A stretch of DNA of 43,830 nucleotides from Syntrophorhabdus sp. (GTDB lineage Bacteria; Desulfobacterota; Syntrophorhabdia; Syntrophorhabdales; Syntrophorhabdaceae): assembly GCA_012719415.1 (NCBI GenBank), contig JAAYAK010000315.1:1-43830 (forward strand), written 5' to 3'. A program made the position numbers and the translations under genes. Shown piece after piece: positions 12,393-43,151 of the stretch. Numbering within the stretch: position 1 is the first letter of the stretch; each line of letters opens with the position of its first letter. The notes under the pieces are model-generated. The model was given only the letters and a program-made list of their open reading frames with translations, did not search any database and was not told the DNA's origin.

Positions 12393-12415
12393 CAGCGAAA
12401 GTCAACATCACGCCG

Positions 12416-12485
12416 TCCCCTCTTTGTGCATGACGCCCCCTCTCTTTTGCCATTGCCTGCAGGGGGCCCTGACTGGTATCCCATT
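12416..12485 (+). repeat. Shared leader element, copy A
   Basis: 70 bp that match 17416-17485 at 58 positions, an offset of exactly 5000 bp. Invariant blocks are CTTTGTGCATGA and CTCTTTTGCCATTGC. It lies 107 bp upstream of the first WD40 gene. Changes between copies are not concentrated at third codon positions in any frame, so I read it as a non-coding regulatory or recombination element. Confidence 0.8.
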
Positions 12486-12536
12486 GATAGCGCGATGCAA
12501 GGACCTGACCGGGGAGGGTCGCTTGCTTCCCGGGCC

Positions 12537-12582
12537 GGTAAAGAGAATCCTCGCGGAAGCGACAAGAATGATATACGATTAG
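12537..12582 (+). pseudogene. 3' scar of the membrane-protein gene found intact at 17830-18432
   Basis: This stretch is nearly the same as the last 46 bases of the intact gene (18387-18432), encoding the end VKRILAEATRxIYD and the stop. Leader copy A sits about 50 bp before it, as if leader, small gene and membrane gene were once present here too and all but the ends was deleted. It precedes the first WD40 start by nine bases. Confidence 0.75.
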
Positions 12583-12591
12583 AGGAAGGTC

Positions 12592-14796
12592 ATGAAGGAA
12601 CTCAAGGTTTCGGACAAAGCGGGGAAGGTACGGCGGGCATCCGATGACGTCGTGCGTGAGGCGCTGGGGACCCTTGTCCCCGGGGGAAGGACCACCCACC
12701 GCATAGGGGGACACACGGACTGGTATCACGGAGCGGCGGTCTCGCCCGACGGGTCGCGGCTGATCACTGCCAACCGCGACGGAACGGCCCGCCTGTGGGA
12801 CATCGCCAGCGGTCAGTGCCTCATGGTGTTTCGGGGGCATACCGGCGAGGTGGTGCGGGCGGCTTTTATGAACCACGCGGACCGGGCCGTCACGACCGAC
12901 GATGACGGCACCCTGCGCCTGTGGGACTGCGCGACGGGCGCCTGCATCCTCGTCCTGAAAGGTCATCATGGACGTGTCGCCGGCCTGGCGGTGAGCCCCG
13001 ATGACAGGTATATCGCAAGCAGCGACAGCTTCTGGGCACTCAGGGTATGGTCCCTTCCCGAGGGTACCTGCGAACATTCCGCGGCAGGGATCAACAATGT
13101 CATGAGGATCCTTGTGAACCGGGACGGCAACACGATGCTGACACTGGACTCACACCATGATATCCTTCGATGGAACTTCCCCGGCATCGGCGAGCCCTCT
13201 CTTGTCGCGAGCGGGGATTATTGGGACATCGCTCTTGCGGGGGATGGAGAGGTTGTGGCCGCCGGAAGGGATGGCCTTTCCTGCTTCGATGTTCGCACCG
13301 GCGCCCGGAAGAGGCTCTATTCCCTGGAACCGCACAAGCCCTACAAGGTGACCACCTCTTCCGACGAAACACGGTTTGTGGCCTGCTGCGGCCCCGGGGA
13401 GACCGTCCTCGTGGTGGACAGCGGAACGGGCGCTATCGAGAAACAGTTTACCGGTCCGAGGCTCGTCACCGACATGACACTCTCGCCGGATGGAAAAACC
13501 CTCTATACGGTGGGCTTTTACCGGACATGCAACATCTGGGATATCGGTACGGGCGAGTGCCTGCAAGCCATCGGTTCCACCCGGAGCGTGCACCATCTCT
13601 CCCTTTCCAGCAGCGGCACGTATCTCGCCGCCTGTGACAAAGGCGATACGGTCAAGCTGTGGAACCTCACGGACGGTTCCCAACGGGCGAAGTTCCCGGG
13701 GGCAACGTCCGTCGCCTTTCTCGAAAACGCCCGTCTTGTTGCCACCGGGCATGATGACGGCCGAGTTCGATTCTGGGACATCGAGAGCGGCAACGAGAAG
13801 CCCGGGGCGGTCTTACAGGCCTACTCATCCGCGGTCGCCTGCGTCCTGCCGCTGGAATCAGGCGCCTCCTTTGCAACCTTCACCCGGCACGGAGTGCCGA
13901 AGCTCTGGAACACGGAAAAACGCAATTGTCTCAAGATCCATAACACGGCCGGAAACATTGACATCGACACCACCGCGATAGATGAAGACACGCAACGCGT
14001 GGCGATGCGTCGCCAGGGGAAGAACCATATACTCGTCTGCGATCTTCGGTCCGGCGATATTCTTGCCACGCTGACGGACCACGCACATAAGTACGGCAAT
14101 CTCTCCGTCATCATCACGGGCATTCGTTTTCTCCCCCGGGGAAGGGGTCTTGTTTCCTGCGGCCGTGACGGCCTTATTATCCTCTGGGACCTCTCCACGT
14201 TCAAGGCCGCGCGGTCTATCAATGTGGGCAGTTCGATCCTCTCCATGGCCGTCGAGAACGACGGACGTCATGTGGTCATCGGCACCTATGCGGGAGGGCT
14301 GGAGCGATGGGACCTCGAAAGCGGGCAACGTGAGATCTGCCGGCCTCCTGAAGGGAGTCCGGTGGCGGGGCTCGCGCTCTCTTCCGACGAAAGCCGGCTC
14401 TTCGTCTCCTTCAGCGACGGGACCGTGAGGATCATAGACAGACAGAGCACGGCCCTCGTCTGCTCCCTCTGGAACGTGGATGACGGCTTCTTCTGGTTCA
14501 CGCCGCCCGACGAGCACGCCCCGGACGGCTGGGTATGGACTGACAGGGAAGACCTGCTCCATCTCGTCGAAGAAGGCAGCGAGGGCAGGGTCCTTGGTGC
14601 CGTACCCCTGGCTGACGAAAGACGAGGAACCTATATCATGACCCGCAACAATGCGGCGATCGTACAGGCGCGCCTCAAGGGCCTCGACGAATACGCGCGC
14701 GTCGCGGGCCGTTATACCCGTGCCCTTGCGGACGGACAGGACAGGATCGAGACCCGCCCGCGCCCGATGCTGACCGGGAAAGATAATGATGCGTAA
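12592..14796 (+). CDS. WD40 beta-propeller protein 1 of the putative unfoldase module
   Basis: A 734-residue cytoplasmic protein made almost wholly of WD40-type repeats, with no signal peptide or membrane segment. Clear blades include GTARLWDIASGQCLMVFRGH, GTLRLWDCATGACILVLKGH, NIWDIGTGECL, VKLWNLTDGS, VRFWDIESGN and LIILWDLSTF. Ten or more repeats imply two propellers. The last 110 residues form a separate conserved tail beginning at FFWFTPPDEHAPDGW, then WTDREDLLHLV, and ending in a basic Arg/Pro-rich stretch. The tail recurs in the next protein. GAGGAAGG precedes the ATG closely. It overlaps the next gene by 11 bases. Likely a scaffold or target-recognition subunit; no enzymatic motif is seen. 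Confidence 0.85.
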   Translation: MKELKVSDKAGKVRRASDDVVREALGTLVPGGRTTHRIGGHTDWYHGAAVSPDGSRLITANRDGTARLWDIASGQCLMVFRGHTGEVVRAAFMNHADRAVTTDDDGTLRLWDCATGACILVLKGHHGRVAGLAVSPDDRYIASSDSFWALRVWSLPEGTCEHSAAGINNVMRILVNRDGNTMLTLDSHHDILRWNFPGIGEPSLVASGDYWDIALAGDGEVVAAGRDGLSCFDVRTGARKRLYSLEPHKPYKVTTSSDETRFVACCGPGETVLVVDSGTGAIEKQFTGPRLVTDMTLSPDGKTLYTVGFYRTCNIWDIGTGECLQAIGSTRSVHHLSLSSSGTYLAACDKGDTVKLWNLTDGSQRAKFPGATSVAFLENARLVATGHDDGRVRFWDIESGNEKPGAVLQAYSSAVACVLPLESGASFATFTRHGVPKLWNTEKRNCLKIHNTAGNIDIDTTAIDEDTQRVAMRRQGKNHILVCDLRSGDILATLTDHAHKYGNLSVIITGIRFLPRGRGLVSCGRDGLIILWDLSTFKAARSINVGSSILSMAVENDGRHVVIGTYAGGLERWDLESGQREICRPPEGSPVAGLALSSDESRLFVSFSDGTVRIIDRQSTALVCSLWNVDDGFFWFTPPDEHAPDGWVWTDREDLLHLVEEGSEGRVLGAVPLADERRGTYIMTRNNAAIVQARLKGLDEYARVAGRYTRALADGQDRIETRPRPMLTGKDNDA

Positions 14797-17203
14797 GACA
14801 GCGGGAACACCGTCGTCTTCCTCGGTCGTATCCTTTCGCCCCGGGAATCTCCCGGCTAAGGTGGTGACCGGCGTCCTCAAGAGGTCCGCCCCGGAGAGCC
14901 GTCTCACCCACGACGCGGGGTTCCACAAACGACAGATCGCCGCGCTCGCGGGGGCCTTTGGCGGCACCCACCTGCTCACGGGAACCTCGAGGGGTGAAGT
15001 TCGCCTGTGGGACATGGCCTCCGGAAGATGCGTACGGACGTTCTCCTGCGGAGGCCCTACCCTTTCGGGCATCTTCACAACACCCCGGACGAACCGCATG
15101 ATAACGGCCTTTCTCTTCGGCACCAAGAAGGTCTGGGACCTTGAAACGGGCGATTGCCTGGCGACCCTGTCCGACCATCCCGGCGATCCCGTGCACTGCA
15201 ACGACGACCATATTTTCTGCAAGCAGAACTGGAATGTCCGGAGTTTCTTCAGGGGGAAAGGTCCTGACTCCAAAAGGTCCGAGGCCCTCGTCTACGAAGT
15301 GAACACAGGAAAGAGAGTCCGAACGTTCCGGATCGAGGGAAGCCATATCAGTTCCCTCGTCGTAAGCCCCGACGGCGGGAAGATCGCCGCCGCCGGCGAC
15401 GACCACTCGGTCCGGATATGGAACGTCACGTCGGAGGACATGCTTCACCAGGCCCGCCGGGGGTTCAGGTGGCCGGCGATCGTTGGCTTCAGTCCCGACA
15501 GCCGGTCAGTTGTTCTGAACTGGACCGACAGGGTCGAGGTACGGGACGTAACGGGGCCGGGCACCTCTTACACCGTCGCGATGCCGTCTCTCAAACAGCC
15601 CTATCGGGCATGGTACGCGCTGAGGGGTTCCCGGCTGATCGAAAACCAGATAGACCTGTCGACTGTCGATCCCTTATCGCATATCCGCGTCATCGATATC
15701 CGAACGGGACAGACCCTGTACACGAACACCTTCTCGGGCGCGATGCAACTTGAGTCCCTGACGGAGGACGGGCGGTTCTGCCTGGGGTTCCGCCACGGCT
15801 GGATCGACGTGTGGGACATGGAAAGCCAGGAAATGACGGCCTCCCTGTCGACAAGCCGGGAATACCACGGCTACGCGGGCGGGTTTAGCAGGATCGCCAC
15901 CATCAATGGACGCATCGCCATCTCCCGGGAGGAATCCGTGGTGCGCCTCGTCGACCCGGCTTCCGGAAGCCCGGCAAGGACATTCCCCGCCAGACAACCC
16001 GTCAGGGACCTCCTGGCGACTCCGGACGGCAAAGCGCTTCTGACGATGCTCGATGGGACGGTGAAATACTGGGAGCTCTCAAGCGGCCGATGTCTCAGGG
16101 AATTCGATGTTCCCGGAATGGAACTCTGGGATGACCTGCCGCAGGGCGCGCCGGTGATGGCAGTCACGCCCGACGGGAGACATCTGGTTCTGCCGTCCGA
16201 GAACGGTGTCGCCATCCATGATCTGTCGACGGGTCGGCATGAAGGGGGTTTCCCCCTGGGAGAAAAAACGGGAGGCCCTTGTGCCCTCTACGTGACCGGG
16301 GACGGAAAAAGACTGATGGCAGTGGCGGGACACACAGGCTTTCTGGGATCCTACGACCTTGGAACGGGCGCCCCCGTTTCCGGTTTCCCTCTCGCCGGCA
16401 TGGACCCCTTCCAGGCATTCTGCATGGGCGGACAGGTCCTCGCCACCGCGAACCGGACTCTCCTTTCGCTCCGGGACGGACGAACAGGCAACCTCCTGAG
16501 GACATGCGACCACAACGATTACATCAACGACATCCTTTGCATCCCGTCGCTGGGAAAGGTGATCGCCGCGGGATTGAGAGGGTTCCACTTCTGGGACCGG
16601 GAAGACGGGGAACCCCTGACGGAAAAGCCGGGCAACGTGGACGGCATCGTCACATTCGGCGGACTCCCATCCCTGTCGCCCGGCGAAACGCGTATCATTC
16701 TTCGGGGCCGGTACTACATCGCCCTGTGGGACACCCGGATACACCGGCTCCTGTGGCGGGACGACTTCCTTGAGGAGAACCGGATAAGAAAGATTGTCAC
16801 CTTTCCCGATGGAAAACGATTCGCGACATCGGATATCACCGGGACCATAAAGGTGAGGAGCATCGAGACCGGGGAGGTCCTCGCCGCCCTTCACATACTG
16901 CCCGAAGGGTTCCTCTGGGAAACCCCGCCCGATGACCATGCCCCTTCGGGCTGGCTCTTTACGGACAGGGAAGACCTTATCACCGTCACGGCCCGGTCGG
17001 GGAACGATGGCGGCACGAGGATATTCCGCGAAGGGGTAAGCGAGCACAGGGCCTACCTGAGGATATACAACAACCGGGCAATGGTCACGGCGAAGATCGC
17101 GGGGAAGGAAGAGTACCGCCAACAGGTCGCACTCCACGCCCGCGTCCTCGACAGGGCACGGATCGGCAACGGCTCCGTCGGTCTTCGCCCCGCCCTGACC
17201 TGA
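14786..17203 (+). CDS. WD40 beta-propeller protein 2 of the putative unfoldase module
   Basis: An 805-residue paralogue of the preceding protein, arranged in tandem. WD40 blades include GEVRLWDMASGRCVRTF, KKVWDLETGDCLATL, HSVRIWNVTSEDML, GWIDVWDMESQEM, GTVKYWELSSGRCL and GFHFWDREDGEPL. The C-terminal tail repeats the pattern of protein 1: GFLWETPPDDHAPSGW, FTDREDLITV, then RAYLRIYNNRAMV. The start codon overlaps the upstream gene by 11 bases (ATGATGCG), so the two are translationally coupled. Divergence between the two is large, so the duplication is old and the copies probably have different partners. It probably works with protein 1 as a pair of propeller subunits. Confidence 0.85.
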   Translation: MMRKTAGTPSSSSVVSFRPGNLPAKVVTGVLKRSAPESRLTHDAGFHKRQIAALAGAFGGTHLLTGTSRGEVRLWDMASGRCVRTFSCGGPTLSGIFTTPRTNRMITAFLFGTKKVWDLETGDCLATLSDHPGDPVHCNDDHIFCKQNWNVRSFFRGKGPDSKRSEALVYEVNTGKRVRTFRIEGSHISSLVVSPDGGKIAAAGDDHSVRIWNVTSEDMLHQARRGFRWPAIVGFSPDSRSVVLNWTDRVEVRDVTGPGTSYTVAMPSLKQPYRAWYALRGSRLIENQIDLSTVDPLSHIRVIDIRTGQTLYTNTFSGAMQLESLTEDGRFCLGFRHGWIDVWDMESQEMTASLSTSREYHGYAGGFSRIATINGRIAISREESVVRLVDPASGSPARTFPARQPVRDLLATPDGKALLTMLDGTVKYWELSSGRCLREFDVPGMELWDDLPQGAPVMAVTPDGRHLVLPSENGVAIHDLSTGRHEGGFPLGEKTGGPCALYVTGDGKRLMAVAGHTGFLGSYDLGTGAPVSGFPLAGMDPFQAFCMGGQVLATANRTLLSLRDGRTGNLLRTCDHNDYINDILCIPSLGKVIAAGLRGFHFWDREDGEPLTEKPGNVDGIVTFGGLPSLSPGETRIILRGRYYIALWDTRIHRLLWRDDFLEENRIRKIVTFPDGKRFATSDITGTIKVRSIETGEVLAALHILPEGFLWETPPDDHAPSGWLFTDREDLITVTARSGNDGGTRIFREGVSEHRAYLRIYNNRAMVTAKIAGKEEYRQQVALHARVLDRARIGNGSVGLRPALT

Positions 17204-17520
17204 TGGGCATCATCGACACCGGGACCGACCCCCAAGGAACACAACATCATCTCCAATGCCTCCCGCACCACCATTCTGCGTGCCCTCATTCTAAGGCTTC
17301 TGTCTCCCTGCCCCTTCCCATTATCGGGTGCCGGCCCGGGTTGTGGCCCCTTCCGACCATCACGGGAAAGGGCAGGGGCTTTGACCTCTCTTGCCATCCG
17401 TTCTTCGCCCCGCAATCCCCACTTTGTGCATGATACACCTTCTCTTTTGCCATTGCGTGCACGGGACTTTGACTGATATCCAATTAGAAAACGCTCTATG
17501 ATCCGTCAATGGAGGTAACC
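17204..17520. repeat. Gap containing shared leader element, copy B
   Basis: No gene is supported here. Positions 17416-17485 are the second copy of the leader found at 12416-12485 (58 of 70 identical), ending 35 bases before the start of the small helical protein. A TTGACT at 17469 and TATGAT at 17497 are present, but the 22-bp spacing is too long for a confident promoter. The rest (17204-17400) is C-rich and featureless. Confidence 0.75.
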
Positions 17521-17808
17521 ATGACAAGAGATGAAGAAATACAGTACGGGATTCAGGCATACAGGGATGCCCTGCGGTTTGCGGCCGGGGCTTCCACACG
17601 GGAAGACCTTGCCGGTGTGGAGGAGAGCTACTGGATCGCCTTTAACAAGTTGAGAGAGTCTCCCCTCGAGGAGCACCGGCTCATCTGCGCCGAATGCCTT
17701 GAAGCGGTGGCGCGGATCCTCGATGGGGAGGGTCGACGGGACGCTGGCAACGATCTTAGGGAGCAGGCGGAGGCCTTCCGCAAGCCCCGCGCCGAAGAGA
17801 AGCGATAA
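17521..17808 (+). CDS. Small helical protein of the unfoldase module
   Basis: A 95-residue acidic protein predicted to be all-helical: EEIQYGIQAYRDALRFAAG, STREDLAGVEESYWIAFNKL, PLEEHRLICAECLEAVARIL and a charged end RKPRAEEKR. It looks like a three- or four-helix bundle and may be an adaptor. The ATG at 17521 has GGAGGT directly before it; an in-frame ATG 12 bases upstream overlaps that site and is less likely. It is the first gene of the second half of the cluster, 21 bases before the membrane-protein gene. I do not recognise a family. Confidence 0.65.
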   Translation: MTRDEEIQYGIQAYRDALRFAAGASTREDLAGVEESYWIAFNKLRESPLEEHRLICAECLEAVARILDGEGRRDAGNDLREQAEAFRKPRAEEKR

Positions 17809-17829
17809 CACACGAGAGGACCGGGGAAC

Positions 17830-18432
17830 ATGGGACACCACAGGCTCATCGCCTGGATACGGGAAGAGATCACGTCCACAGAGGTGGTCATGCGGAGTGA
17901 AGTGGTCGGCTATACAGAGCGATTGGAGCCCAATCCCGCCATGTCTGTCTCCGAGGGCACCCTTTATCCTACAACGTCGGATGGGATGTACGAGATCCAC
18001 CAGGACCCCATCTACAAGGATGTCCCCCGGACCGTCCTCGACGAGAGGCGCGCGTCCGATGCCGCCGAGGCTCTCGTCGCCCTCGTACTCTCCGACGAGC
18101 GGTACATATACCTGGCGAGTGAACTGATGGGCGAAGAGAAGGTGTTCGTTCCGCACTGGGAGCGCCTCTGCCGGATGGGTAGGAACAGAAGGACACGACG
18201 GTTGGCCCTTCATCGCCTTGGCAAAGCCCCTTCCCAGCTTTTCATGGAGGGAGTACGCGCGATGGCGGAAGCGCTGAAAGGTCCGCTCACGTTTCTCTGG
18301 TATCTCTGCGCCAGTGCATGCTTTTACGCCTTTATCATCTACCTCATCTGGCCGGACTCGAAGGCGGGCAGGTGGATCGCCGCGACGGTAAAGAGAATTC
18401 TCGCGGAAGCGACAAGAATAATATACGATTAG
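17830..18432 (+). CDS. Membrane-anchored protein of the unfoldase module
   Basis: A 200-residue protein with a soluble N-terminal part (residues 1-150) and one clear hydrophobic segment at about 155-178 (LTFLWYLCASACFYAFIIYLIW) followed by a short basic tail ending ILAEATRIIYD. The soluble part has an EVVGYTERLEP segment, acidic helices with SDAAEALVALVLSDERY, and an RNRRTRRLALHRLG basic patch just before the membrane. It probably anchors the complex to the inner membrane with the N-terminus in the cytoplasm. A 46-bp copy of its 3' end survives upstream of the first WD40 gene. The family is not recognised. Confidence 0.65.
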   Translation: MGHHRLIAWIREEITSTEVVMRSEVVGYTERLEPNPAMSVSEGTLYPTTSDGMYEIHQDPIYKDVPRTVLDERRASDAAEALVALVLSDERYIYLASELMGEEKVFVPHWERLCRMGRNRRTRRLALHRLGKAPSQLFMEGVRAMAEALKGPLTFLWYLCASACFYAFIIYLIWPDSKAGRWIAATVKRILAEATRIIYD

Positions 18433-18486
18433 AAGGAAACCGCTCATTTGCGACCCTCTTCCGCTGAAAAGGAAAGGAGATGGAAA

Positions 18487-20091
18487 ATGACACCCTACAG
18501 CAAACTCGGCGACGACATGGACGCGGTCATACGGTCCTTTCATACGAACCCCGCCGTCACTAAATGGCAGAGAAACATCTGGCGGGCCGACGGCAAGAAG
18601 AAGGCGATCACCCACGACATGTTCGGATGCGACCACGAAAAGGCCCTTGCTTTCGAAGACGGCACAACGGTGGGCTCCCTGAAGAAGAACAGTGCCCGCC
18701 GGTTCTGGGATTACGCGGGATGGCATGTCTTCCCGCCGGTGGAGGACGTGGCCCGTTTCTGCCTTTTCATGCATCTTGACCTTTACCGAACGCTGGCGCT
18801 CGTGCTGAAAGCCGAATGGGAACGCTTTTTCGCCCACGAGGTGAACGGCTGGAGAGCGGCGGACGGGACAAGCCTGACCGATATTCTTCTCGACAGGAAC
18901 GAGCATGACCTGAGGGAGGCCCTTGCCCGGTTCCAACCCCGGGAGGACCTCTATAGACTCATCGGGGACCTTGCCGCCCGCCACGCGCCGGCATTCGACA
19001 CCGGCAGGCCTTTTCTCGAGGGGCACACACCTTCCACCTTCGGGGAACTGGTGAAAGAGATGCTCATGGGAAGGTATCATTTCCACTCGGTAGTGGGCGC
19101 GGAGGTCTCCCAATTCGCGGCGCGGGCACGGAAGGAATTCCTCCTTCTCGTGGAAGGCACCGAAAAAGAGCAGCAGGCCTACGCCATCGAGAAGGCACGG
19201 TGGGTATCTCTGCGGCAGGAACTGGAAGACGTCTACCTGCTCATCGAGAACCAGCGGATAAGGAACGCCCACACCCGCCGCGAGTGGCTCTCCCTCTTCG
19301 GAAAGGAGGAGATCGGGCTCAGGGAGGCCGCCCTCATGCTGGAACGGCGCGATATGCGCCTTAACCTCAAGAAGGTGAACCCCAGCTGGTCCCGTGAAGA
19401 CATCGAAGAGCACATAGAGAGAGAGGAGGCGCAAAGACAGCTCGAGCTCACGCGGCTTAAGACCGACGCGGCCCTGGCCCCCCACCTCGTGAGGATCTCC
19501 GGGGAAACGGGCGCGGAGGGGAAGACGGTCGAGCCCGACCGGTACCTGAAAGAGTGCAAGACGGTGCTCCGTCAGATACGCAGGCTGCTGCATCCCGACA
19601 GGCTGATGCACCACCCCTCCTACGGACATCTCACAGAGGGCCAGAAGGAACGCCTTGAGGAGATGCTGCTCGCCGCCCTCGAGGTCCGCCCCGAGGAACT
19701 GGGCTATCCCGAGGGGTACATGCTCCACGACATGCGCTCACTGGAAGGTTTGAAGAGCGCCCTTACGCGCGTCGAGGCCATCCTGGGCAACCCGGGGGTC
19801 GAGGTCGACGAGCGGCTCACCATACAGGGTGAAACTCTCCCGGAGAAACTCACATGGCTCCAGAGGGAAGTGAAGTTGCTCGAGGATGAGGTGCTCGCCG
19901 CGAAGGCGGAACTCCAGGCCCTCTTTGAGGATGAGGACAGGGTAAGGGAGCGGGCCATCCTTAAAGACCCGGACCGTCACGACAGGGTGAGGGCCGACCT
20001 TGCGGCCCGCACGGGGGAGATAAGACGCGACGCCGAACGCCTGGAGAGGGACTACAATGCCCTTTTCGGCCCGGAAGGAGAGGCGCGATGA
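18487..20091 (+). CDS. Long helical protein with J-domain-like HPD segment
   Basis: A 534-residue soluble, mostly helical protein. Residues about 350-410 contain YLKECKTVLRQIRRLLHPDR, then a helix LTEGQKERLEEMLLAALEV. This is the helix-HPD-helix pattern of a J-domain, with HPD at about 369-371. The rest shows an N-terminal aromatic-rich domain (ARRFWDYAGWHVFPPVEDV), a charged middle helix (SREDIEEHIEREEAQRQ) and a C-terminal coiled-coil-like region (LQREVKLLEDEVLAAKAELQ, then RRDAERLERDYNAL). ATG at 18487 follows AAGGAG by eight bases. Its stop overlaps the ATPase start (ATGA). It could recruit Hsp70 or deliver substrates to the AAA+ ATPase; the J-domain reading rests on one motif. Confidence 0.65.
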   Translation: MTPYSKLGDDMDAVIRSFHTNPAVTKWQRNIWRADGKKKAITHDMFGCDHEKALAFEDGTTVGSLKKNSARRFWDYAGWHVFPPVEDVARFCLFMHLDLYRTLALVLKAEWERFFAHEVNGWRAADGTSLTDILLDRNEHDLREALARFQPREDLYRLIGDLAARHAPAFDTGRPFLEGHTPSTFGELVKEMLMGRYHFHSVVGAEVSQFAARARKEFLLLVEGTEKEQQAYAIEKARWVSLRQELEDVYLLIENQRIRNAHTRREWLSLFGKEEIGLREAALMLERRDMRLNLKKVNPSWSREDIEEHIEREEAQRQLELTRLKTDAALAPHLVRISGETGAEGKTVEPDRYLKECKTVLRQIRRLLHPDRLMHHPSYGHLTEGQKERLEEMLLAALEVRPEELGYPEGYMLHDMRSLEGLKSALTRVEAILGNPGVEVDERLTIQGETLPEKLTWLQREVKLLEDEVLAAKAELQALFEDEDRVRERAILKDPDRHDRVRADLAARTGEIRRDAERLERDYNALFGPEGEAR

Positions 20092-22322
20092 CCTTGAGCG
20101 ACCTCTGTGAACTTGTGGGCCGGTATTACCCGGACGGCGAACGCACCCTTCCCCGGATCCTCTTCGTCTGGGCCATGCACGACGAGGATGGCAGCCTCGC
20201 CCAGCTCCTCGCGCAGGCGAAGACGAAGGTAAGCATCTTCTCCCTTGCCGTCGAAGGCTTCATAGAAGACCGCGTGGAGGAGGACCGGCGCCTCCTCACC
20301 CGAACCGTCATCGAGACACGCAGGAAACCCGTGACGGCATACGACGTCCTCTCCATTCTCTGCGACAGCCCGGACCACCGCATATACCGGGCCCTTAAGT
20401 CCGCAGGCATCGACATGACGATCCTCGCGATATGCGCGAAGCACGCCGGCTACGCGGCACATCGCAAGACCCTGCTCGGTGGGCAGCGCGCCCTGCGCAA
20501 CGACGGTGTCCTCCTCCAGTATGGCAGGGACCTGACGAAGCTTGCCGAAAACGGGGATTTCGACGACCTCTCCGACCGGCCCGACGAGATCGACCGCCTC
20601 TTCGAGGTCCTTCTGAGGAAGAAGAAACGCAACGCCATGCTCACCGGCCCCGCGGGCGTCGGCAAGACCGCCCTCGTCGAGCTCCTGTCGCGGCGCATCG
20701 CCCGGCGCCTCGCGCCGGCACGTCTCTTTCGGACCCGGGTGTATGAGATCAGCATGGGGAGCCTCCTCGCGGGGACGACACTGCGCGGCATGTTCGAAGA
20801 ACGGGTATCGAAGGTGATAGAGGCCCTTCAGGCCTGTCAGCCGGCGATCCTCTTCATCGATGAGGCGCACCTGCTCTGGGGCGCGGGCAGGGCGGAAGGG
20901 GCGCCCATGGATGCGGCGAACATGTTGAAGCCCATCCTCGCCGGATCGAAGGTCTCCGTCATCGGCGCCACGACGACGGGTGAGTACCACCGCTACATCA
21001 CCCGGGACCCGGCCCTGGCGAGACGCTTTCAGCAGATAAAGATAGAAGAGCCGGAAAGGGAGACGACGCTCGCCATCCTCGCGCGCCACGCGCGAGGCCT
21101 CGAGAGCCACCACGGGATCCGGATCGGGACCGATGTCCTCTCCGAGGCCTGGCACGCAACGGAGCGCCACCTCACGAACCGCACCCAGCCCGACAAGAGC
21201 GTTGACCTCCTCGACAGCGCCGCGGGTCTCGTCGAAAGGGAAGGCAGGGACGTGATGGGAACGGAGGACCTCTACCGGGTCCTCTCCCGCCAGACAGGAA
21301 GGATGATGAGCGCCCTCGGAGAGGGCACGACGAGGGACCTGACGGGCCTCGAGGACGCTCTCAACAGCCAGGTGATCGGACAGGAGGACGCGGTGGGCAG
21401 GGTCGTCTCGACCCTGGTCTCCCGAAGGTACGGGGAGACGGCCCCGGGGAGGCCGCTGGGGACTTTCCTCTTCTGTGGCGCCACGGGCGTCGGCAAGACG
21501 GAGCTTGCCCGGACCCTGGCACGGGAGTATTTCGGGAGCCAGAAGGACTTTCTCCACATCGACCTCGCCGAGTACCCGGGGCAGGACGGCGTGCACAAGC
21601 TCATCGGGACGCCCTACGGTTCCGCCTTCGGCACGGCCGACGGCCTTCTCACCAGGTGGCTCGAGGAGAGATCGAGCGGCGTTATCCTCTTCGACGAGAT
21701 AGAAAAGGCGCACCCCGATGTGCACAGGCTTCTTCTTGGAATGCTCGACGAAGGAAGGGTGACCTCGGGAATGGGAGAGCGTTTCGACATCCGCCGCTGC
21801 GTCGTCATCCTCACCACGAACGTCCTCGCGCACCGCGACATCGACCGGGTCAAACTGGGTTTCTCCGCGAGCGACGACCCGTCAGACCCCTACGCACTCC
21901 TCGCGAAACACTTCCCCGAAGAGTTCCTGGGAAGGCTCGACGAGATCATAATCTTCAAAACACCAACGGCGCCCATCCTGAGGACGATCATGGGCCAGAA
22001 GCTCAAAGAGGCCATAAACCGCCTCAAGCATAAAGGCATCTTTCTCATCTACGACGAGGACCGTCTCCTCGACCACCTGCTCGCAGGCACCGGACGGCCC
22101 TGGGCCGGAGCGCGGGACATGGCCCGCCTCATAGAGCGAAAGCTCATCCAGCCCATCGCCCGCCGCCTCATCGACTGCGACACACAGGAATGGGTCTGCA
22201 TCGAACTGACGGAGTCCTTCTACCGCTCAGGCGTCCTCAACCCCCTGCCGCTCCTCAAACGCCCCGGCCCGCCGCCCGATTACCCCGACAACCCCGCAAC
22301 GGCGTTGAACGCCCGACAATGA
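20088..22322 (+). CDS. ClpA-type double AAA+ unfoldase (Clp/Hsp100 family)
   Basis: A 744-residue ATPase. Residues 1-130 resemble a Clp N-terminal double repeat. D1: Walker A GPAGVGKT (187-194), Walker B ILFIDEAH (254-261), arginines at 312-313. D2: Walker A GATGVGKT (464-471), Walker B VILFDEIEKAH, sensor TTN, GRLDE arginine. No ClpB-type coiled-coil middle domain separates D1 and D2, so it is ClpA/ClpC-like rather than a disaggregase. In D2, KLGFS (589-593) sits where ClpC has its VGF ClpP-docking loop, so a protease partner is possible. The usual pore motifs are altered: TLRG for KYRG in D1 and GSAFG for GYVGY in D2. The C-terminal PPDYPDNPATALNARQ tail recurs inverted near 31.7 kb. Confidence 0.85.
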   Translation: MTLSDLCELVGRYYPDGERTLPRILFVWAMHDEDGSLAQLLAQAKTKVSIFSLAVEGFIEDRVEEDRRLLTRTVIETRRKPVTAYDVLSILCDSPDHRIYRALKSAGIDMTILAICAKHAGYAAHRKTLLGGQRALRNDGVLLQYGRDLTKLAENGDFDDLSDRPDEIDRLFEVLLRKKKRNAMLTGPAGVGKTALVELLSRRIARRLAPARLFRTRVYEISMGSLLAGTTLRGMFEERVSKVIEALQACQPAILFIDEAHLLWGAGRAEGAPMDAANMLKPILAGSKVSVIGATTTGEYHRYITRDPALARRFQQIKIEEPERETTLAILARHARGLESHHGIRIGTDVLSEAWHATERHLTNRTQPDKSVDLLDSAAGLVEREGRDVMGTEDLYRVLSRQTGRMMSALGEGTTRDLTGLEDALNSQVIGQEDAVGRVVSTLVSRRYGETAPGRPLGTFLFCGATGVGKTELARTLAREYFGSQKDFLHIDLAEYPGQDGVHKLIGTPYGSAFGTADGLLTRWLEERSSGVILFDEIEKAHPDVHRLLLGMLDEGRVTSGMGERFDIRRCVVILTTNVLAHRDIDRVKLGFSASDDPSDPYALLAKHFPEEFLGRLDEIIIFKTPTAPILRTIMGQKLKEAINRLKHKGIFLIYDEDRLLDHLLAGTGRPWAGARDMARLIERKLIQPIARRLIDCDTQEWVCIELTESFYRSGVLNPLPLLKRPGPPPDYPDNPATALNARQ

Positions 22323-22338
22323 CAAGGGAGGTAAAAGT

Positions 22339-22509
22339 ATGGAAGACCGCGAAAACAGCAAGAAAGTGGAAGAGCATAACTGCGAGGAACATGTCCGCTA
22401 TGATGGGGGACAGAAGATCAACAGGGATGGGGTGAGGGTGTGGGTGGAGACGTACTATTGCAGCGTTTGTGGGAGGAGGTTGGACATTAAAGAGGAGATA
22501 TTGGACTGA
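22339..22509 (+). CDS. Small zinc-ribbon-like protein, copy 1
   Basis: A 56-residue protein 16 bases after the ATPase stop. AGGGAGG lies seven bases before the ATG. It has an acidic start, CEEH at 15-18 and YYCSVCGRR at 39-47; the Cys/His set could bind one zinc ion. A second copy with 49 of 56 identical residues lies inverted at 31470-31640. Many differences between the copies are synonymous or conservative, so both appear to have been kept under selection. It is the last gene of the unfoldase module; adaptor or regulatory role is inferred from position only. Confidence 0.75.
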   Translation: MEDRENSKKVEEHNCEEHVRYDGGQKINRDGVRVWVETYYCSVCGRRLDIKEEILD

Positions 22510-22514
22510 AAGAC

Positions 22515-22550
22515 GGTTAGAGCCGTTAGAACCGCTGGAGCCGTTGGAGC
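22515..22550 (+). repeat. 9-bp degenerate tandem repeat after the zinc-ribbon gene
   Basis: Four units of nine bases (GGTTAGAGC, CGTTAGAAC, CGCTGGAGC, CGTTGGAGC) start six bases after the stop codon. A related four-unit array follows the second zinc-ribbon copy. Confidence 0.7.
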
Positions 22551-22642
22551 GGGAGGAAAGATGGCCGATCTCCGAAAGGCTCCCTCTATAAGGCGATGGA
22601 TTGGGTTCGCCTTCGTTGCGGATTCACTTCTTAGTATCCCAC

Positions 22643-22670
22643 TTGACAAGAATTAGATATGTGGTATATT
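22643..22670 (+). promoter_or_regulatory. Sigma-70-type promoter for the XRE-ImmA gene
   Basis: TTGACA, a 16-bp spacer and TATATT lie 34 bases upstream of the start codon at 22704. The downstream sequence GTGG...CCAC (22661-22687) could form an operator for self-repression. Confidence 0.7.
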
Positions 22671-22703
22671 TATGGTACGTTCACCACGGGAGGAGGGTTA
22701 GCC

Positions 22704-23795
22704 ATGAACATGGGGGTGCTTGCACAGAACGTAAGGCGCCTCAGGATAGCCAGAAGAATGAGCCAGAGCGACCTTGCGGAAGCATCCGGAGTTTCCCTGC
22801 CAGCCATCAAAGGCTTGGAGAATTCCAAAGCGAAGCCTCGTATGAACACCCTGCTTGCTATAGCAAAGGCCCTCGGGGCCAATCTGCAGGAACTTTTTCT
22901 TCCGGTGAGGGAGCTGCGGGTGGTCCGTTTCCGTTCGAGCAGAAGGATGCAGAATCGCGAGAACATTCTGGCAAAGGCGTCAAGATGGCTCGATGATTTC
23001 GATTATCTGGAGAAAGCTCTTAAGGATGAGCAACCTTTCGGGCTTGGACAAATAAGGCAAAAGTGCTCGAGGAACCATACGGTGGAAGCGGCAGCCCTGT
23101 GCCGCGAAAAACTCGGGCTTAAAACCGACGAGCCCATTCGCAATATCTGCGGACTTCTGGAAAGCGCCGGCATCAAAATCTACCCGATCGAAATGGCGTC
23201 CGATGGTTTCTTTGGTCTTTCGATCGGGGAAGAGGACGGCGGGCCTGCGATAGTCGTGAACGTATGGGAACGTATTACGGTAGAAAGACGTATTTTCAGT
23301 GCCGCCCACGAGCTTGGTCATCTCATGCTGCATCTGGAGGCCTTTGACGTTCGGAAAACCACTGAAGATAAGGAGGAAGAGCGTGAAAGCGACCTCTTCG
23401 CGGGTCATTTCCTCATGCCCGATGCGGGATTTCTGAAGGAATGGAACAGCACCGCCGGCCTTCACTGGATCAAAAGGGTCCTCAAAGTCAAAAGGATCTA
23501 CAGTGTCAGCTACAAGACCGTCCTGTATCGACTTATCGAGCATGGGGCCGTTGATGAAAAGAATGTCTGGAAAGACTTTCTGTCGGCATATCAACGGCTC
23601 TTCAAGCGCAGTCTTTCCTTCAGGGATGAGCCTGATCGTCTGAAGACTCTGGATTTTGTCGAGGACCGGTACACGCGCCTAGCCCGGAAGGCAATCGAGA
23701 AAGAAACGGTGTCAACGAGCCGGGGGGCCGAACTGCTCGGTATCAGCCTGGGAGAGATGCGGGATCTCATGCAAAACTGGGGAGCGGTTCTTTGA
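22704..23795 (+). CDS. XRE-family regulator with ImmA/IrrE metalloprotease domain
   Basis: A 363-residue two-domain protein. Residues 5-65 are a Cro/CI-type helix-turn-helix (LRIARRMSQSDLAEASGVSLPAIKGLE). From about 140 on there is an M78-family domain with the zinc motif HELGH at 202-206 (FSAAHELGHLMLH) and downstream E/D residues in ESDLFAGHFLMP. Such proteins repress a promoter and can be inactivated, or can cleave a partner, in phage and toxin-antitoxin settings. The start is backed by GGGAGGAGG. The stop overlaps the TTG start of a PIN-domain gene. Together they look like a toxin-antitoxin pair of the known COG2856-PIN arrangement. Confidence 0.85.
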   Translation: MNMGVLAQNVRRLRIARRMSQSDLAEASGVSLPAIKGLENSKAKPRMNTLLAIAKALGANLQELFLPVRELRVVRFRSSRRMQNRENILAKASRWLDDFDYLEKALKDEQPFGLGQIRQKCSRNHTVEAAALCREKLGLKTDEPIRNICGLLESAGIKIYPIEMASDGFFGLSIGEEDGGPAIVVNVWERITVERRIFSAAHELGHLMLHLEAFDVRKTTEDKEEERESDLFAGHFLMPDAGFLKEWNSTAGLHWIKRVLKVKRIYSVSYKTVLYRLIEHGAVDEKNVWKDFLSAYQRLFKRSLSFRDEPDRLKTLDFVEDRYTRLARKAIEKETVSTSRGAELLGISLGEMRDLMQNWGAVL

Positions 23796-24319
23796 AACGA
23801 ACCAGGGGGCCTGATGCGTCGCTCCGGCTGATGATCATGGATGCTGACGTGCTGATCGATTTCCTCAAAGTCGACCGCTCGGTTCTCAACCTCATTGTTC
23901 AATACGTCGGACCTATTCACGTGGTGAGTCCCGTCGCCGGGGAGATTGGAGAGGTCGATGACGAGGAAGAACTCGTCGAACTCGGACTGCTCATCATCGA
24001 GCCGGAAGTAGAAGATGGTTTTGAGGCCATGGATTGGCCCCCTGGACCCACGTCGTTCCAGGACAGGCTTTGCCTGCTGACAGCCAGACGTCACGGCTAC
24101 ACCTGCGTGACCAATGACAAGAGGCTCAGGAAACTGTGTGCCAGGGAAAATGTTCCGGTCCTGTGGAGTCTGGAACTGATGTTAGAGCTTCATGGCGCCG
24201 GCGGTATTTCGACGGAAGATGCTCTCGACATCGCCACGGGGATACATGAGGTGAATTCGCGGCATATTACTCTGGACATTCTGGATAGGTTCAGGGTGCG
24301 TTTACGCGGCAAGGGGTAG
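23792..24319 (+). CDS. PIN-domain ribonuclease, likely toxin partner
   Basis: A 175-residue PIN-like nuclease. The acidic set fits the family: Asp17/19 in IMDADVLIDFLK, Glu51 in VAGEIGEV, Asp91 in FQDRLCLLTARR and Asp109 in VTNDKRLR. These would hold metal to cut RNA. The start is probably TTG at 23792, overlapping the stop of the XRE-ImmA gene by four bases, with GGGGAG seven bases before it; an ATG at 23831 lacks a ribosome site. Translational coupling fits the toxin of the pair. It is longer than small VapC toxins (about 130 residues), with an extra helical C-terminus. Confidence 0.8.
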   Translation: MKRTRGPDASLRLMIMDADVLIDFLKVDRSVLNLIVQYVGPIHVVSPVAGEIGEVDDEEELVELGLLIIEPEVEDGFEAMDWPPGPTSFQDRLCLLTARRHGYTCVTNDKRLRKLCARENVPVLWSLELMLELHGAGGISTEDALDIATGIHEVNSRHITLDILDRFRVRLRGKG

Positions 24320-24705: not shown

Positions 24706-24763
24706 AATGTAATCCCGAAAGGGAACGCGGGGAGACCTTGCACTCGGAAATCTGGTTTCTTGG
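24706..24763 (+). repeat. 58-bp dispersed repeat, copy 1
   Basis: It matches 33462-33519 at 55 of 58 positions, in the same orientation. Core blocks are TGTAATCCCGAAAGGGAAC and AGACCTTGCACTCGGAAA. Both copies sit beside transposase sequence. Confidence 0.85.
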
Positions 24764-25245: not shown

Positions 25246-28200
25246 CTACTCGTATACCTGAACGATTATTGGACTGACGTTTATTAACCCCACTTCATCG
25301 TACTTCTTTACCTCGTCATAGGAGTACTGCTTCCCTCGGTAGGTTGTTTTCAGAACATATCCGAGCCTTAGGTTCTCTTGTTCCAGCCATTTACCAATAA
25401 AGTCTTTCTCAGCCATCAAATATTCGCCGTGTGGAAACGGAAGATCCCGATAGTACCTTTCTTTTAAACCTTCAAGCCAGTCATAGTGAACAGCAAGTCT
25501 CTTGCCGTCTTTCTCCTGCATCTCCCACCTATTCTCGTGAATCGCAATCCCGAGACGCTCACCGAGCTTCCAATTCAGCGTGAGTGAAGGATTGTAATCT
25601 CTAAAGAACTGCCACAGCCCGATAACCAGATCTTGCTCATACGCGACTATCGGGTGTATCAACAGATCTCCGATCCGAATAGGCTCCTCTCTTACCGGTA
25701 TGTGATTCGCTTTGTCCTCGAGAAAATTGAACGGTCTGGATGTCATTGACGGAATAACGGCAATACGGGGAGAATAACCTATCTTTTTGATCACCTGGTC
25801 ACCCGTTGGTAAATCTACGCCTCTGACTTGATAGCCAAAGGAAATGAGTCTGAAAGAGTGAAGCGGATTAGCTCCCTGTTTCCAGCCGTCTGGAGGTTCA
25901 ATGGCTCCTTGAGCGCCAACGAGAATCATGTTGTCACGTTGTTCCGTCAGTTTTACAATTGGTTCCTTCAACGCAATAGCCACAATCTTTTCTGTTCCGC
26001 CGGAACCGCCTGCGCTTTCCGTGGCAAGTCTTGGCCACCATTCGGGCGCGCGGTTGGGGAGTATCTTCCACTTGGATAGATCAACCGGGAGCGTGGCATA
26101 TGCGTATTCCAGATAGAAATCTCGCTGAATGTTACCGTTTGCGTAAAAAACCTGGAGGACCCGCAAGAAAGCAGATCTGTAAGCTTCGCTTATCTTTGTA
26201 GAAAATCCGGTGAGGAACTCATCGTGCTCGCTTCGAGCATAATAATGAACTTGGTTAGCATCTGCATTCACTCCCGCATCCGTCAATATCTTATCAGCGA
26301 TGAAGGCCCAGTGCTTGATGAATTGTCGGAATGAATTCTTTTCAATTTCCTTAGCTCGTTCCATATAGACAGGGGCCAAGAATGTCTGAACATGTTTCAG
26401 AAAAAACTCGCTCGCTTCATAACCGGTTGGGGCTAATTGAATGTTTTGAAATGCGGGAAGCGCTGGTTTATCAGTCTTGGCAAAAAGGGCTATTTCGTCG
26501 AACAGTTTTTCCACCGTCTCGGAATTCACTGATACTGAATTCGCTATATCTTCAATCCTGATGTATGACAGATCGTCTGGGCTTTCGGCAACGGAGAATG
26601 CTTTAACGATTGGAAGTAGTCCTATGGCGACCGTTGTTTCCATCTTCTGTCGGCTGATCCAACGCAACAGTTCTCCGTATATGTTTTTCTTGTTATCACT
26701 CTTAGAAAGCAGCCGGGCTAATCCTGTAGCAGTGCGCTCGCGGACTGTGGGGCTTGGCCACACCAATCTCTGGAGCAGGATATCGAGAACCGAAGCGTCC
26801 GTTTCTTCTTTGAACCAAATGGGAATCGGCAGGGAAAGATCGGCCATGAGGGTTTCAGCGAACCCCACGCTCGCCTCGGTTATCGTTTCGGCCCGTTCGG
26901 AGTCGTCGAACAGAAGAAAGTATTCCACTCCTCTTGGGTTTGGCACGAAGCGACCGGCGCTTTTTTGGAAGAATTCAACATATCTATTTGGATACTTTTG
27001 TTTAACGAACCTCCATCGACTCTCCGCTTTCTCTTTGTCGGTATAGTATTGAGACCATCCGTGATCATTTGTCTGTGCGGTGCATAATAACTCGAATGCC
27101 AATGCAGGATTGAATTCATAGATGACCGGATAAATAGTGTCGAGCACTTCACCGAACATTGACTGAGTGCCGAACTTCTCAGCAATCATCTCGAACACTT
27201 CGTAAATATCCCGTTTGTGAGCATGCTCCAGCCAGTAGCCTAACCAACCGGCTAGGTACTGATTCCATGCGTAGCGATGTTCAAAATCGCCGTTCAGGTG
27301 TTCCAGCAAATGGTTAGGGTCAATCGCGGAGTAGTCGATATCAGTCTTGTCTAATAAATAGCGTTCCCCCCGCTCTTCTTCGGGATAGTTGGTTTCCCCC
27401 AGATAAGACTGAATGCTTTCAAGCGCCATTTTGGCGCCTTCATTCTTCTTTGCGGTCGACTTCAAAAGAGCGAGAGAATCCTTTTCCAAAGCGGTAGCGG
27501 CTAAAGCTATTTCGATATCGTCCGTGAATGACAGGGAAATCAGTAGACTTCTGAATAGGTCCTTGCCACGATAAAACAGTTCTTGACCGGCCGTCCAATA
27601 GTAATACTTGCGCAACAGACCGGGGTTCTGCTTTGCTAAAAGATCGGCCAGTTCTACAGGGAGATGATTTGTCTCGTCTCCATCGGTGTATTCCCCGGCA
27701 CTATCAACTAAGGGAATGACTCGGCCAACCCATTCATCGGTTCTTTTACGATCCGTTCCTGCCTCGGTGCAAATTTCAATAGCTTCGAGTACACCAAACA
27801 GGTAGACGTCCTTGTGGTAACCATAACCCAGAATATTGTCTGCGCCTTTGGCGAGGAACAGTTGAGCCGGTCCAGAATCATTATGAATGCGCGAAAGCTT
27901 TGCGAGATTACAGTACTCCCTGGCTCGATCGGGTAGAGTTCTTATGGTGTTCGCTAACTCGCCCGCTTTTTCATCTCTGATTTTTTCGTAAAGACGATCC
28001 GAAAAAAACTTCTTGCCGATGTCGAGAGCAATTCCGACCAGGTCGTCGCGGGCAAAGAAAGCTGGATTGTTCACCATTGCTTCATAATCAGGCACATCAA
28101 TCGTGCAATCATCCCCCATGTACTGCTTGATTAAGACCAGCTCTCTCAAAACGTCATCGATCGCAGCTTTGAGAGCAAACTGAAAATTCAGAGAAGATCG

Positions 28201-31122: not shown

Positions 31123-31469
31123 AGCTACTTATTCTGGTCCTTAAAGGATCAACCGCTAAGTTACCGTCTATCATATTCGACGGAATAACTGAAGAAGAAA
31201 GTACGTTAAAAGGCGTATTAATCGATTCAATCAGCCAATCTGGCGAGGCGCGGTTAAATGAATAAAAATATGTGCTCCAGCTTCTAGCAGAAGAACCATA
31301 TTCGTGATAGAAGGCGAAGTAGTAGGCACTATGGGGAATATATAACGCCCTTCACATTTCCACATTCTCAGGACGCTGCAAGTACGGCGACCGCCAGATA
31401 CCCTTTCCATCATCTCTTGGTTCTCGCGCTCAAGCGATTTAAGCCATTCAAGCGATTCAAGCCGCCTCT
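31123..31469. repeat. Intergenic stretch with 9-bp tandem repeat
   Basis: A gene-free region upstream of the STAND gene. Positions 31431-31466 hold four 9-bp units (CAAGCGATT, TAAGCCATT, CAAGCGATT, CAAGCCGCC) directly downstream of the second zinc-ribbon gene, mirroring the array at 22515-22550. The AT-rich part at 31150-31250 probably carries the STAND promoter; I cannot name a clear -35/-10 pair. Confidence 0.6.
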
Positions 31470-31640
31470 TTAATCCAGCACCTCCTCCCTCACATCCACC
31501 CTCCTCCCGCACACCTTACAGTAGTACGTCTCCACCCATATCCTCACCCCATCGCGATTGATCTTCTGCCCACCATCGTAGCGGACATGTTCCTCGCAGT
31601 TATGCTCTTCCACTTTCTTGTTGTTTTCGCGGTCTTCCAT
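31470..31640 (-). CDS. Small zinc-ribbon-like protein, copy 2
   Basis: A 56-residue paralogue of the protein at 22339-22509, inverted relative to it, with 49 of 56 identical residues. The CEEH and YYCKVCGRR metal-ligand pattern is kept. The start codon and upstream GGGAGG site are also kept. The gene is complete although the ATPase gene that should precede it is reduced to its last 46 codons. Whether it is still transcribed is unclear, since its original promoter is gone. Confidence 0.75.
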   Translation of the reverse strand: MEDRENNKKVEEHNCEEHVRYDGGQKINRDGVRIWVETYYCKVCGRRVDVREEVLD

Positions 31641-31656
31641 ACTGTTACCTCCCTTG

Positions 31657-31794
31657 TCATTGTCGGGCATTAAGCGCCGTTGCGGGGTTGTCGGGGTAAT
31701 CGGGGGGTGACCCCGGGTCCTGGAGAAGGGGCAGGGGGTTCACGGTCCCTGAGTGGTAGAAGGACTCCGTCAGTTCGATGCAGACCCATTCCTG
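31657..31794 (-). pseudogene. Truncated C-terminus of a second ClpA-type ATPase
   Basis: 45 codons plus stop match the end of the ATPase at 20088-22322 (39 of 45 residues identical), from QEWVCIELTESFY to PDYPDNPATALNARQ. Homology stops abruptly at 31794, where unrelated sequence begins. With the adjacent zinc-ribbon gene it forms a 325-bp inverted copy of 22186-22509. Confidence 0.85.
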
Positions 31795-32094
31795 GGGTGG
31801 CAGGGGGACGTCCGGTTTAACTAGAGTCAACAGAAAAGATTTCCTCATCCGTCAATAGGCCGTCGGTTCCCTCCTTCGTTCCTCCCTCTCTTTGCTGCGT
31901 TATGATCTGCGGGTTGCCCCCACTTCATGTCTGCGACCCCACTCGGGTGCTTCGGAGGCGACCTCTTTTTTTGTCCCTCAACAGTGCTTCATCGTGGTCA
32001 GCAGACGTGGGGAGTCACAGCTCGTAAGTCGAAGCCCTCCGGCATGCGGAGGCTCATGGACGTCCCTGGTGACCTCCCCACAGATCTCTTATCT
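31795..32094. other. Non-coding stretch 3' of the IS110 transposase, candidate bridge-RNA region
   Basis: About 230 bases between the IS110 transposase stop and the edge of the inverted module copy contain no supported gene. There is a stem-loop at 32036-32052 (CCTCCG / CGGAGG, 5-nt loop) and several GC-rich segments. IS110-family elements carry a structured non-coding RNA at one end, so this stretch or the 5' side (33340-33440) is where it should lie. Confidence 0.35.
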
Positions 32095-33339: not shown

Positions 33340-33592
33340 AATGGTTACCTCCTCCTTTGGGCTGTATGGTGATTTGGCGATTTCCATCAGCCTATCCGGT
33401 TGAGGTAACCTTTTCAATGTCCAGGTTTGGTTATAGCACTCTCAAGAAACCAAGAAACTCAAATGTAATCCCGAAAGGGAACACAGCGAGACCTTGCACT
33501 CGGAAATCTGGTTTCTTGGGGACGTCCCTCCGCCACCCCAAAGGAAAGAGAATGACCGCCCCGCATGCCTGCGTTTGCGGTCCATTGAGATG
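33340..33592. repeat. IS110 5' flank with 58-bp dispersed repeat, copy 2
   Basis: The repeat at 33462-33519 matches 24706-24763. Here it is bracketed by a 9-bp inverted repeat (CAAGAAACC at 33443-33451, GGTTTCTTG at 33510-33518), giving a small palindrome-ended unit. This is typical of the repeats into which IS110-type elements insert. No gene is seen in this stretch. Confidence 0.7.
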
Positions 33593-41620: not shown

Positions 41621-41977
41621 CTACTGATACTCGATCACGGCTGCAATTGCGGCTGCGATCTCTTCCATTGCTGTTGGTGAGATGCTTCCGAGCTTCTTCA
41701 CCAGTCTTTGTGTGGAAACACTTCTTATTTGAAGTGCATCGGCGGCGGATGTTTTGTCGAGGCCGTTCAGTGTGTCGTTGGCAATCTTGATGTGCCACAG
41801 GTTTTTTGCGTAGCGTTCCTTCCAGTCTGTCAACGGAACAACGACGACCAGCGGCAGGATTCCGAGCGCGTCTGAACTGACGACCGCTGCCGGACGTTTT
41901 TTATTGATCTCAGAGCCCAGTGTCGGGTCGAAATTGACGAGCCATACATCTCCGCGCGAAGCGATCTTAATACTCAA
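41621..41977 (-). CDS. MazF/PemK-type endoribonuclease toxin
   Basis: A 118-residue toxin-like protein. The N-terminus reads IKIASRGDVWLVNFDPTLGSE then NKKRPAAVVSSD, the RGDIWxxxxxPxxGxExxKxRPxxVxS pattern of MazF; VVPLTDW and LQIRSVSTQRLVKKLG also fit. It cuts single-stranded RNA at short motifs in known members. The best start is TTG at 41977, with GGAGAG five to six bases before it and an 11-base overlap with the upstream XRE-ImmA gene. So the regulator-protease probably serves as its antitoxin partner in place of MazE. Confidence 0.85.
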   Translation of the reverse strand: MSIKIASRGDVWLVNFDPTLGSEINKKRPAAVVSSDALGILPLVVVVPLTDWKERYAKNLWHIKIANDTLNGLDKTSAADALQIRSVSTQRLVKKLGSISPTAMEEIAAAIAAVIEYQ

Positions 41978-43136: not shown

Positions 43137-43151
43137 AATGTTCACCCCTCA

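Follow-up and report, generated by a model that had tools for sequence, protein, structure and literature searches.

A conserved gene module of Syntrophorhabdus may encode a membrane-tethered, client-selecting Hsp100 machine

Introduction

What work would a ClpA-type Hsp100 ATPase do when it is encoded together with two WD40 propellers, a coiled-coil protein bearing an HPD motif, a membrane protein and two small proteins? The question is raised by seven genes in a 43,830-nucleotide stretch of Syntrophorhabdus sp. DNA (hereafter the window), which is contig C315 of a 3.7-Mb draft assembly (G000). The genes, here called WDa, WDb, SH, TM, J-like, CLP and ZR, were first grouped by a reading of the letters alone (the original prediction), which proposed a single membrane-linked unfoldase complex and considered a defence role plausible. 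We tentatively favour a different emphasis: the module would be a dedicated membrane-tethered, client-selecting Hsp100 machine that probably passes its clients to ClpP. This reading is plausible but short of probable, and much of what follows concerns the observations that support it and those that do not.

A seven-gene module kept within the genus

All seven closely set plus-strand open reading frames (ORFs) were recovered, and the overlaps given for them, 11 bases between WDa and WDb and 4 bases between J-like and CLP, proved exact. The J-like ORF spans 18448-20091, with its likely start at the ATG at 18487. Ratios of nonsynonymous to synonymous substitution rates (dN/dS) were about 0.1-0.4 for the module genes wherever dS could be estimated; dS for ZR was often saturated. 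Because relatives keep the ORFs at these ratios and as a set, all seven are real and maintained genes.

The J-like protein was sought in 99 related genomes. Its matches were confined to the genus, where seven of the 12 genomes sampled carry it, and in those seven SH, TM, WDa, WDb, J-like, CLP and ZR are co-located; the locus of G003 ends at a contig end inside CLP, and the module of G010 lies on two contigs. TM, sought separately, was found in the same seven carriers and in none of the other five genus genomes. Module proteins are about 50-94% identical across the carriers. A J-like search of genome contigs likewise returned only the same genus, from drafts annotated as Syntrophorhabdus sp., Syntrophobacterales or Deltaproteobacteria. 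The all-or-none occurrence of J-like and TM, together with the recurrence of the set, bears out the proposal that these genes form one inherited module.

The Hsp100 ATPase

The assignment of CLP to the ClpA type held up both in an NCBIfam scan and in alignment to E. coli ClpA. The NCBIfam scores were 462 bits for ClpB (cut-off 1232) and 447 bits for ClpA (cut-off 993), both below the equivalog cut-off. CLP residues 144-695 form one collinear stretch with residues 171-721 of E. coli ClpA; against ClpB, residues 139-381 and 391-702 match 150-391 and 522-832, and the M-domain is skipped. Alignment places the VKLGF sequence of CLP opposite the IGL loop that a ClpB chimera takes from ClpA, and opposite the counterpart loop of ClpC. 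The VKLGF is invariant in six full-length CLP homologues, down to 77% overall identity, and the ClpB proteins read from the same genomes have no LGF-type loop. The IGL/F motif is used by ClpA, and not by ClpB, to bind ClpP (PMC5540906).

A clpP gene is present and adjoins tig and clpX. Among the Hsp100s detected in the 12 genus genomes, CLP alone bears the loop; the other matches read are of ClpB or ClpV type. The window genome carries two nearly identical ClpB contigs (C226 and C299), perhaps a strain mixture in the draft. On inspection of the alignment, CLP retains its Walker motifs together with the FLGRL and GAR positions, and it is probably an active ATPase with unusual pore loops.

Two familiar Hsp100 systems offer points of comparison. 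Like ClpA and ClpC, which work with ClpP and adaptors such as ClpS and MecA, CLP has rings collinear with those of E. coli ClpA, no M-domain, an LGF at the IGL/IGF position and a genetic linkage to putative adaptors. Unlike them, it has lost the pore-loop tyrosines of both rings, has a divergent N-domain below Pfam detection, and has partner genes that specify WD40, J-like, membrane and small proteins in place of ClpS or MecA. The disaggregase formed by ClpB with DnaK and DnaJ resembles the module in linking an Hsp100 with an HPD protein. In ClpB, communication with DnaK runs through the M-domain; CLP lacks this domain, the J-like protein is a long coiled coil that is not recognised as DnaJ, and ClpB is separately present.

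The J-like protein, the propellers and the smaller subunits

The HPD motif is invariant in eight J-like homologues, down to 25% identity, and lies between helices predicted by AlphaFold2 at residues 352-368 and 384-398; the remainder of the protein consists of long helices and coiled coil. A fold search with the J-like model (predicted local distance difference test score, pLDDT, 73; predicted template modelling score 0.55) returned just coiled coils and helical bundles, with scores at about the level of helical noise or under it.

Both propellers are secure members of the Pfam WD40 family (PF00400, cut-off 27), at 157.6 bits for WDa and 58.6 bits for WDb. Their rate of evolution is roughly double that of the J-like and CLP proteins: over the same genome pairs, dN/dS was 0.25-0.42 for WDa and 0.28-0.38 for WDb, compared with 0.10-0.17 for CLP and 0.12-0.19 for J-like. 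This weaker constraint on the propellers fits client binding without proving it. For SH the ratio was about 0.10-0.28.

The candidate for the expected membrane anchor is TM, which has one predicted membrane segment. Its 19-residue hydropathy maximum is 2.0, at residue 155, and AlphaFold2 places a helix at about residues 154-173, near the C-terminus, with pLDDT there of about 60-65. A fold search with the TM model (pLDDT 75) gave helical-repeat look-alikes only (best Z 8.2). ZR, the putative zinc-ribbon protein, has five invariant residues, H13, C15, H18, C41 and C44 (alignment A8). In Pfam, NCBIfam, PADLOC and PHROG no significant family was matched by SH, TM, J-like or ZR, although ZR gave two marginal PHROG matches.

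The J-like/WD40 pair beyond the genus

At the C-terminus, WDa and WDb share a conserved tail, GFxWxTPPD...GWxWTDREDL (alignment A3). Profiles of the J-like protein and of this tail (95 residues) were searched independently in 395 genomes of one phylum. The J-like profile matched four genomes, those of the window, G172, G320 and G339, besides giving one short marginal match, and the tail profile matched exactly the same four. With genomes counted as independent, agreement of this kind would arise by chance with a probability of about 1e-9; G320 and G339 belong to one class, so about three independent lineages are represented. J-like is followed by an overlapping WD40 gene in G172 and G339, and in G320 each of the two lies at a contig end, which is compatible with adjacency.

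No Clp gene stands beside these outgroup loci in the stretches read, and a profile of the CLP N-domain (A5), run on 297 phylum genomes, matched the window genome only. The J-like/WD40 pair is, on this distribution, the older unit, with CLP, TM, SH and ZR as additions seen in the genus only; the outgroup pairs make CLP appear a lineage-specific partner. No homologue of J-like or of the WD40 tail was found in viral contigs, and none was found in plasmids. DnaJ genes have been reported near WD40 genes in Cyanobacteria (PMC5587647), which likewise places WD40 genes beside genes for J-domain proteins; those neighbourhoods differ from the module in being annotation statistics only, with no Clp, membrane subunit or defined module.

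A proposed mechanism and its closest rival

In the mechanism that we tentatively favour, the WD40 propellers would bind particular client proteins, and their shared tail would dock on the coiled-coil J-like protein. The HPD hairpin would bring in the cell's DnaK, whose presence is presumed, to prime the client. The CLP ring, held near the inner membrane through TM, would then take the client over and either feed it to the housekeeping ClpP via the LGF loop or remodel it. SH and ZR may serve as small adaptors or assembly factors. A more specific form of this proposal is possible if somewhat unlikely: the propellers and the HPD coiled-coil protein would constitute a substrate receptor that delivers clients at the membrane to the ClpA-type ring, with the J-WD40 pair as a portable unit of recognition that different lineages plug into different effectors. 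The whole would then represent a new class of protein-fate machine in bacteria. Such a receptor would be a loose prokaryotic analogue of the WD40 substrate receptors of eukaryotic degradation.

Several observations weigh against this mechanism. The canonical KYRG of ring 1 is TLRG in all six homologues, within a conserved AGTTLRG pore loop, and the canonical GYVG of ring 2 is GSAF in the window (GTPYGSAF), with variable residues in relatives. With both canonical pore-loop aromatics absent, processive threading into ClpP is less certain. Homology of J-like to J-domains is not significant: the best PDB profile match, to the auxilin J-domain, has an E value of only 0.18, hhalign against six J-domains aligned HPD to HPD at a probability of 4%, and there is no Pfam DnaJ match. 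J-like would be a J-protein by motif, its J-domain membership unproven. The presence of the J-WD40 pair without an adjacent Clp gene in other families counts on the same side.

The loss of the pore tyrosines keeps one rival serious. The CLP ring may be a ClpP-independent remodeller that assembles, disassembles or reshapes a membrane-proximal complex, with the WD40 and J-like proteins as scaffold and the LGF inherited and unused for ClpP. ClpV remodels the sheath of the type VI secretion system in such a manner. Beyond the pore loops, which are altered in both rings while the other ATPase positions still align with those of intact Hsp100s, the membrane segment of TM and the dedicated partner genes favour this idea. 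We nonetheless regard it as unlikely, since VKLGF is strictly conserved exactly at the ClpP-docking position and the genome's own ClpV-type protein is encoded by a different gene, on C124.

Genomic surroundings and the defence question

A second rival treats the module as a conflict or anti-phage system, in which the propellers would sense a foreign or phage protein and the Clp and J machinery would destroy or activate something. Its distribution is patchy, at seven of 12 genomes in the genus and four of 395 in the phylum sample, its propellers evolve fast, and ATPase-plus-propeller conflict systems exist (PMC7159879). The original prediction had leaned on the neighbourhood, and the window does have toxin-antitoxin genes and a gene for an Avs-like Cap4-NACHT protein next to the module. 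The J-like gene of G172 has a TIR-NPHP3/NACHT-WD40 gene two genes away.

The comparison with relatives undoes much of this argument. On the 3′ side of the module, the window has HTH-M78/PIN genes (helix-turn-helix and M78), the Avs-like gene and an IS110 transposase. In both G005 and G010, the end of the module is followed directly by window sequence from about 33.6-34.1 kb onward, and roughly 11 kb carrying the Avs-like and HTH-M78/PIN genes is, on this alignment, an insert in the window lineage. The flanks in G003, G008 and G011 hold non-defence genes: glycosyltransferase, radical-SAM, Asn-synthase, Lnb, PAS, FecR, OmpA, CHASE2 kinase, PpnN and M48. With the defence neighbours on a lineage insert and non-defence flanks elsewhere, guilt by association is weak, and the defence role drawn from the neighbourhood is not supported. 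No recurrent association with defence genes was seen across the genomes compared, no toxic effector domain was found in the module and no complete PADLOC defence system was detected, and the lack of relatives in viral contigs or plasmids also speaks against a conflict system, which we consider decidedly unlikely.

PADLOC and NCBIfam scans found no named system with this gene set, in agreement with the original prediction. As a candidate for a named defence system, CLP gave generic AAA matches only (PDC-M37B, DolB and TRIP13). Dodola (DolA-DolB) is similar in having a ClpB-like ATPase, and the DolB profile aligns with 173 residues in ring 2 of CLP; this match is confined to the generic AAA region, and no module protein matches DolA. 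The ternary systems of beta-propeller, FtsH and MoxR-vWA proteins (PMC7159879) share an AAA ATPase, a beta-propeller and a membrane segment in an operon; they differ in that the module's ATPase is of ClpAB type, MoxR is absent and no vWA is among the Pfam matches listed.

Even less survives of the proposal that CLP is a general second feeder of ClpP with its own adaptors, a stress or quality-control module replacing a missing ClpA or ClpC: the genus has ClpB, ClpX and ClpP with no ClpA or ClpC detected besides CLP, and the other Hsp100s read in its 12 genomes are loop-less, but in five of these genomes, including three with a completeness of 92% or more, the module is missing and no other loop-bearing Clp was detected. 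The function is therefore dispensable, and two fast-evolving propellers argue for selective clients, making this substitution very improbable.

Some features of the surroundings are recorded here in their own right. The Avs-like protein (1958 aa, 25246-31122, minus strand) has an N-terminal Cap4-type nuclease domain, a NACHT/AAA domain that weakly matches Avs1b, and a long C-terminal region with no match listed. Just upstream of its gene and codirectional with it, an inverted segment at 31423-31803 (minus strand) contains the terminal ~45-55 codons of a second CLP together with a second ZR ORF that is complete, at 82% DNA identity to 22175-22555; the segment resembles the end of a further module copy that came in, or was left, with the insert. 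The IS110-family transposase gene lies at 32095-33417, and a 58-bp direct repeat (95% identical) at 24706-24763 and 33462-33519 possibly marks how part of the insert was built. Two HTH and M78 (IrrE-like) regulator genes occur at 22659-24319 and 41621-43145, one with a PIN-type protein and the other with a PemK/MazF toxin.

In G172 a sigma-54 activator lies between the J-like/WD40 pair and the TIR, NPHP3/NACHT and WD40 protein gene (L035, 14001-17062), and in G339 a sigma-54 response regulator (L042, 2531-4234) stands two genes upstream of the pair. Tungstate-type ATP-binding cassette genes flank the module in four genomes; in G003 they are on another contig, so the module's site is not fixed in the genus. 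A cassette encoding a FecR protein, an OmpA-like lipoprotein and a CHASE2 sensor lies downstream of the module in G011 and G008 (L020, 1-3538; L021, 13941-18017), which suggests a shared older location.

Gene layout and control region

The module's genes in the window fall into two blocks, and the same 70-bp leader had been described before each. The repeat itself is confirmed (12416-12485 and 17416-17485, 83% identity, E 1.5e-13), but an independent leader for the WD40 block is not. A second repeat, absent from the original prediction, joins the 3′ end of TM to a short segment just before WDa (Table 1). The SH leader is thus fused to the last TM codons at block 1, which marks the scar of a deleted SH-TM copy and not a separate leader. 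Intact TM copies occupy the place of this relic in G002, G003, G005, G008 and G011.

The gene order in G003, G008 and G011 is SH-TM-WDa-WDb-J-CLP(-ZR), and the ancestral order was probably SH-TM-WDa-WDb-J-like-CLP-ZR. In G000, G002, G005 and G010, SH or SH-TM is also present between WDb and J-like; of the first copy, G002 and G005 retain a divergent TM (56-58% identity), and G000 and G010 a mere scar. With related genomes displaying such intermediate states of duplication and loss, the two-block look with its repeated leader is, by alignment, the outcome of a duplication of SH-TM after which one copy was partly lost.

Across 11 aligned copies the upstream element shows strong conservation, even where the adjacent non-coding DNA does not. 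The core of copy 1, CTTTTGCCATTGCNTGCA, is kept across the aligned copies, and the module-specific element (12416-12485, 17416-17485) has the core TTTTGCCATTGCNTGCA. Clean matches to the core in the genus occur at the module only. Its strong conservation and these module-only matches make the element probably the module's own control region. A wider role as a regulon element was rejected, other matches with one or two mismatches being about as frequent as those of a reversed control pattern. A sigma-70 promoter for the module was also rejected, at just a 9/12 match near 17473. A strong 11/12 sigma-70-like site at 22643-22670 belongs to the downstream HTH-M78 gene.

Table 1. The module and its associated elements in the window, in order of position
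Feature	Position	Strand	Basis or remark
Upstream element copy 1, before WDa; remnant of the control region that belonged to a deleted SH-TM copy	12411-12485	+	
Remnant of a deleted TM gene (its 3′ end), just 5′ of WDa	12530-12587	+	91.5% identical to 18380-18438
WDa, WD40 propeller protein, 734 aa	12592-14796	+	Pfam WD40, E 2.8e-47
WDb, second WD40 propeller protein, 805 aa	14786-17203	+	Pfam WD40, E 6.1e-16
Upstream element copy 2, before SH	17411-17485	+	
SH, small protein, 99 aa	17509-17808	+	Alignment A7, 65-91% identity among relatives
TM, soluble N-terminal domain and one predicted membrane helix, 200 aa	17830-18432	+	Hydropathy, AlphaFold2
J-like coiled-coil protein, 534 aa	18487-20091	+	Invariant HPD at residues 369-371
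CLP, ClpA-type double-ring Hsp100 ATPase, 744 aa	20088-22322	+	NCBIfam, collinearity with ClpA
ZR, putative zinc-binding protein, 56 aa	22339-22509	+	Alignment A8

Implications

Were the proposed client-selecting machine to hold true, Syntrophorhabdus would possess a bacterial Hsp100 pathway with WD40 receptors and possibly an HPD bridge to Hsp70. The pathway would be membrane-tethered, and its motor would be a ClpA-like ring in which the ClpP-docking loop is retained and the canonical pore tyrosines are not; the module would thereby offer a natural test of Hsp100 function in a ring that lacks them. The profiles of the J-like protein and the WD40 tail can be used to find the core pair elsewhere.

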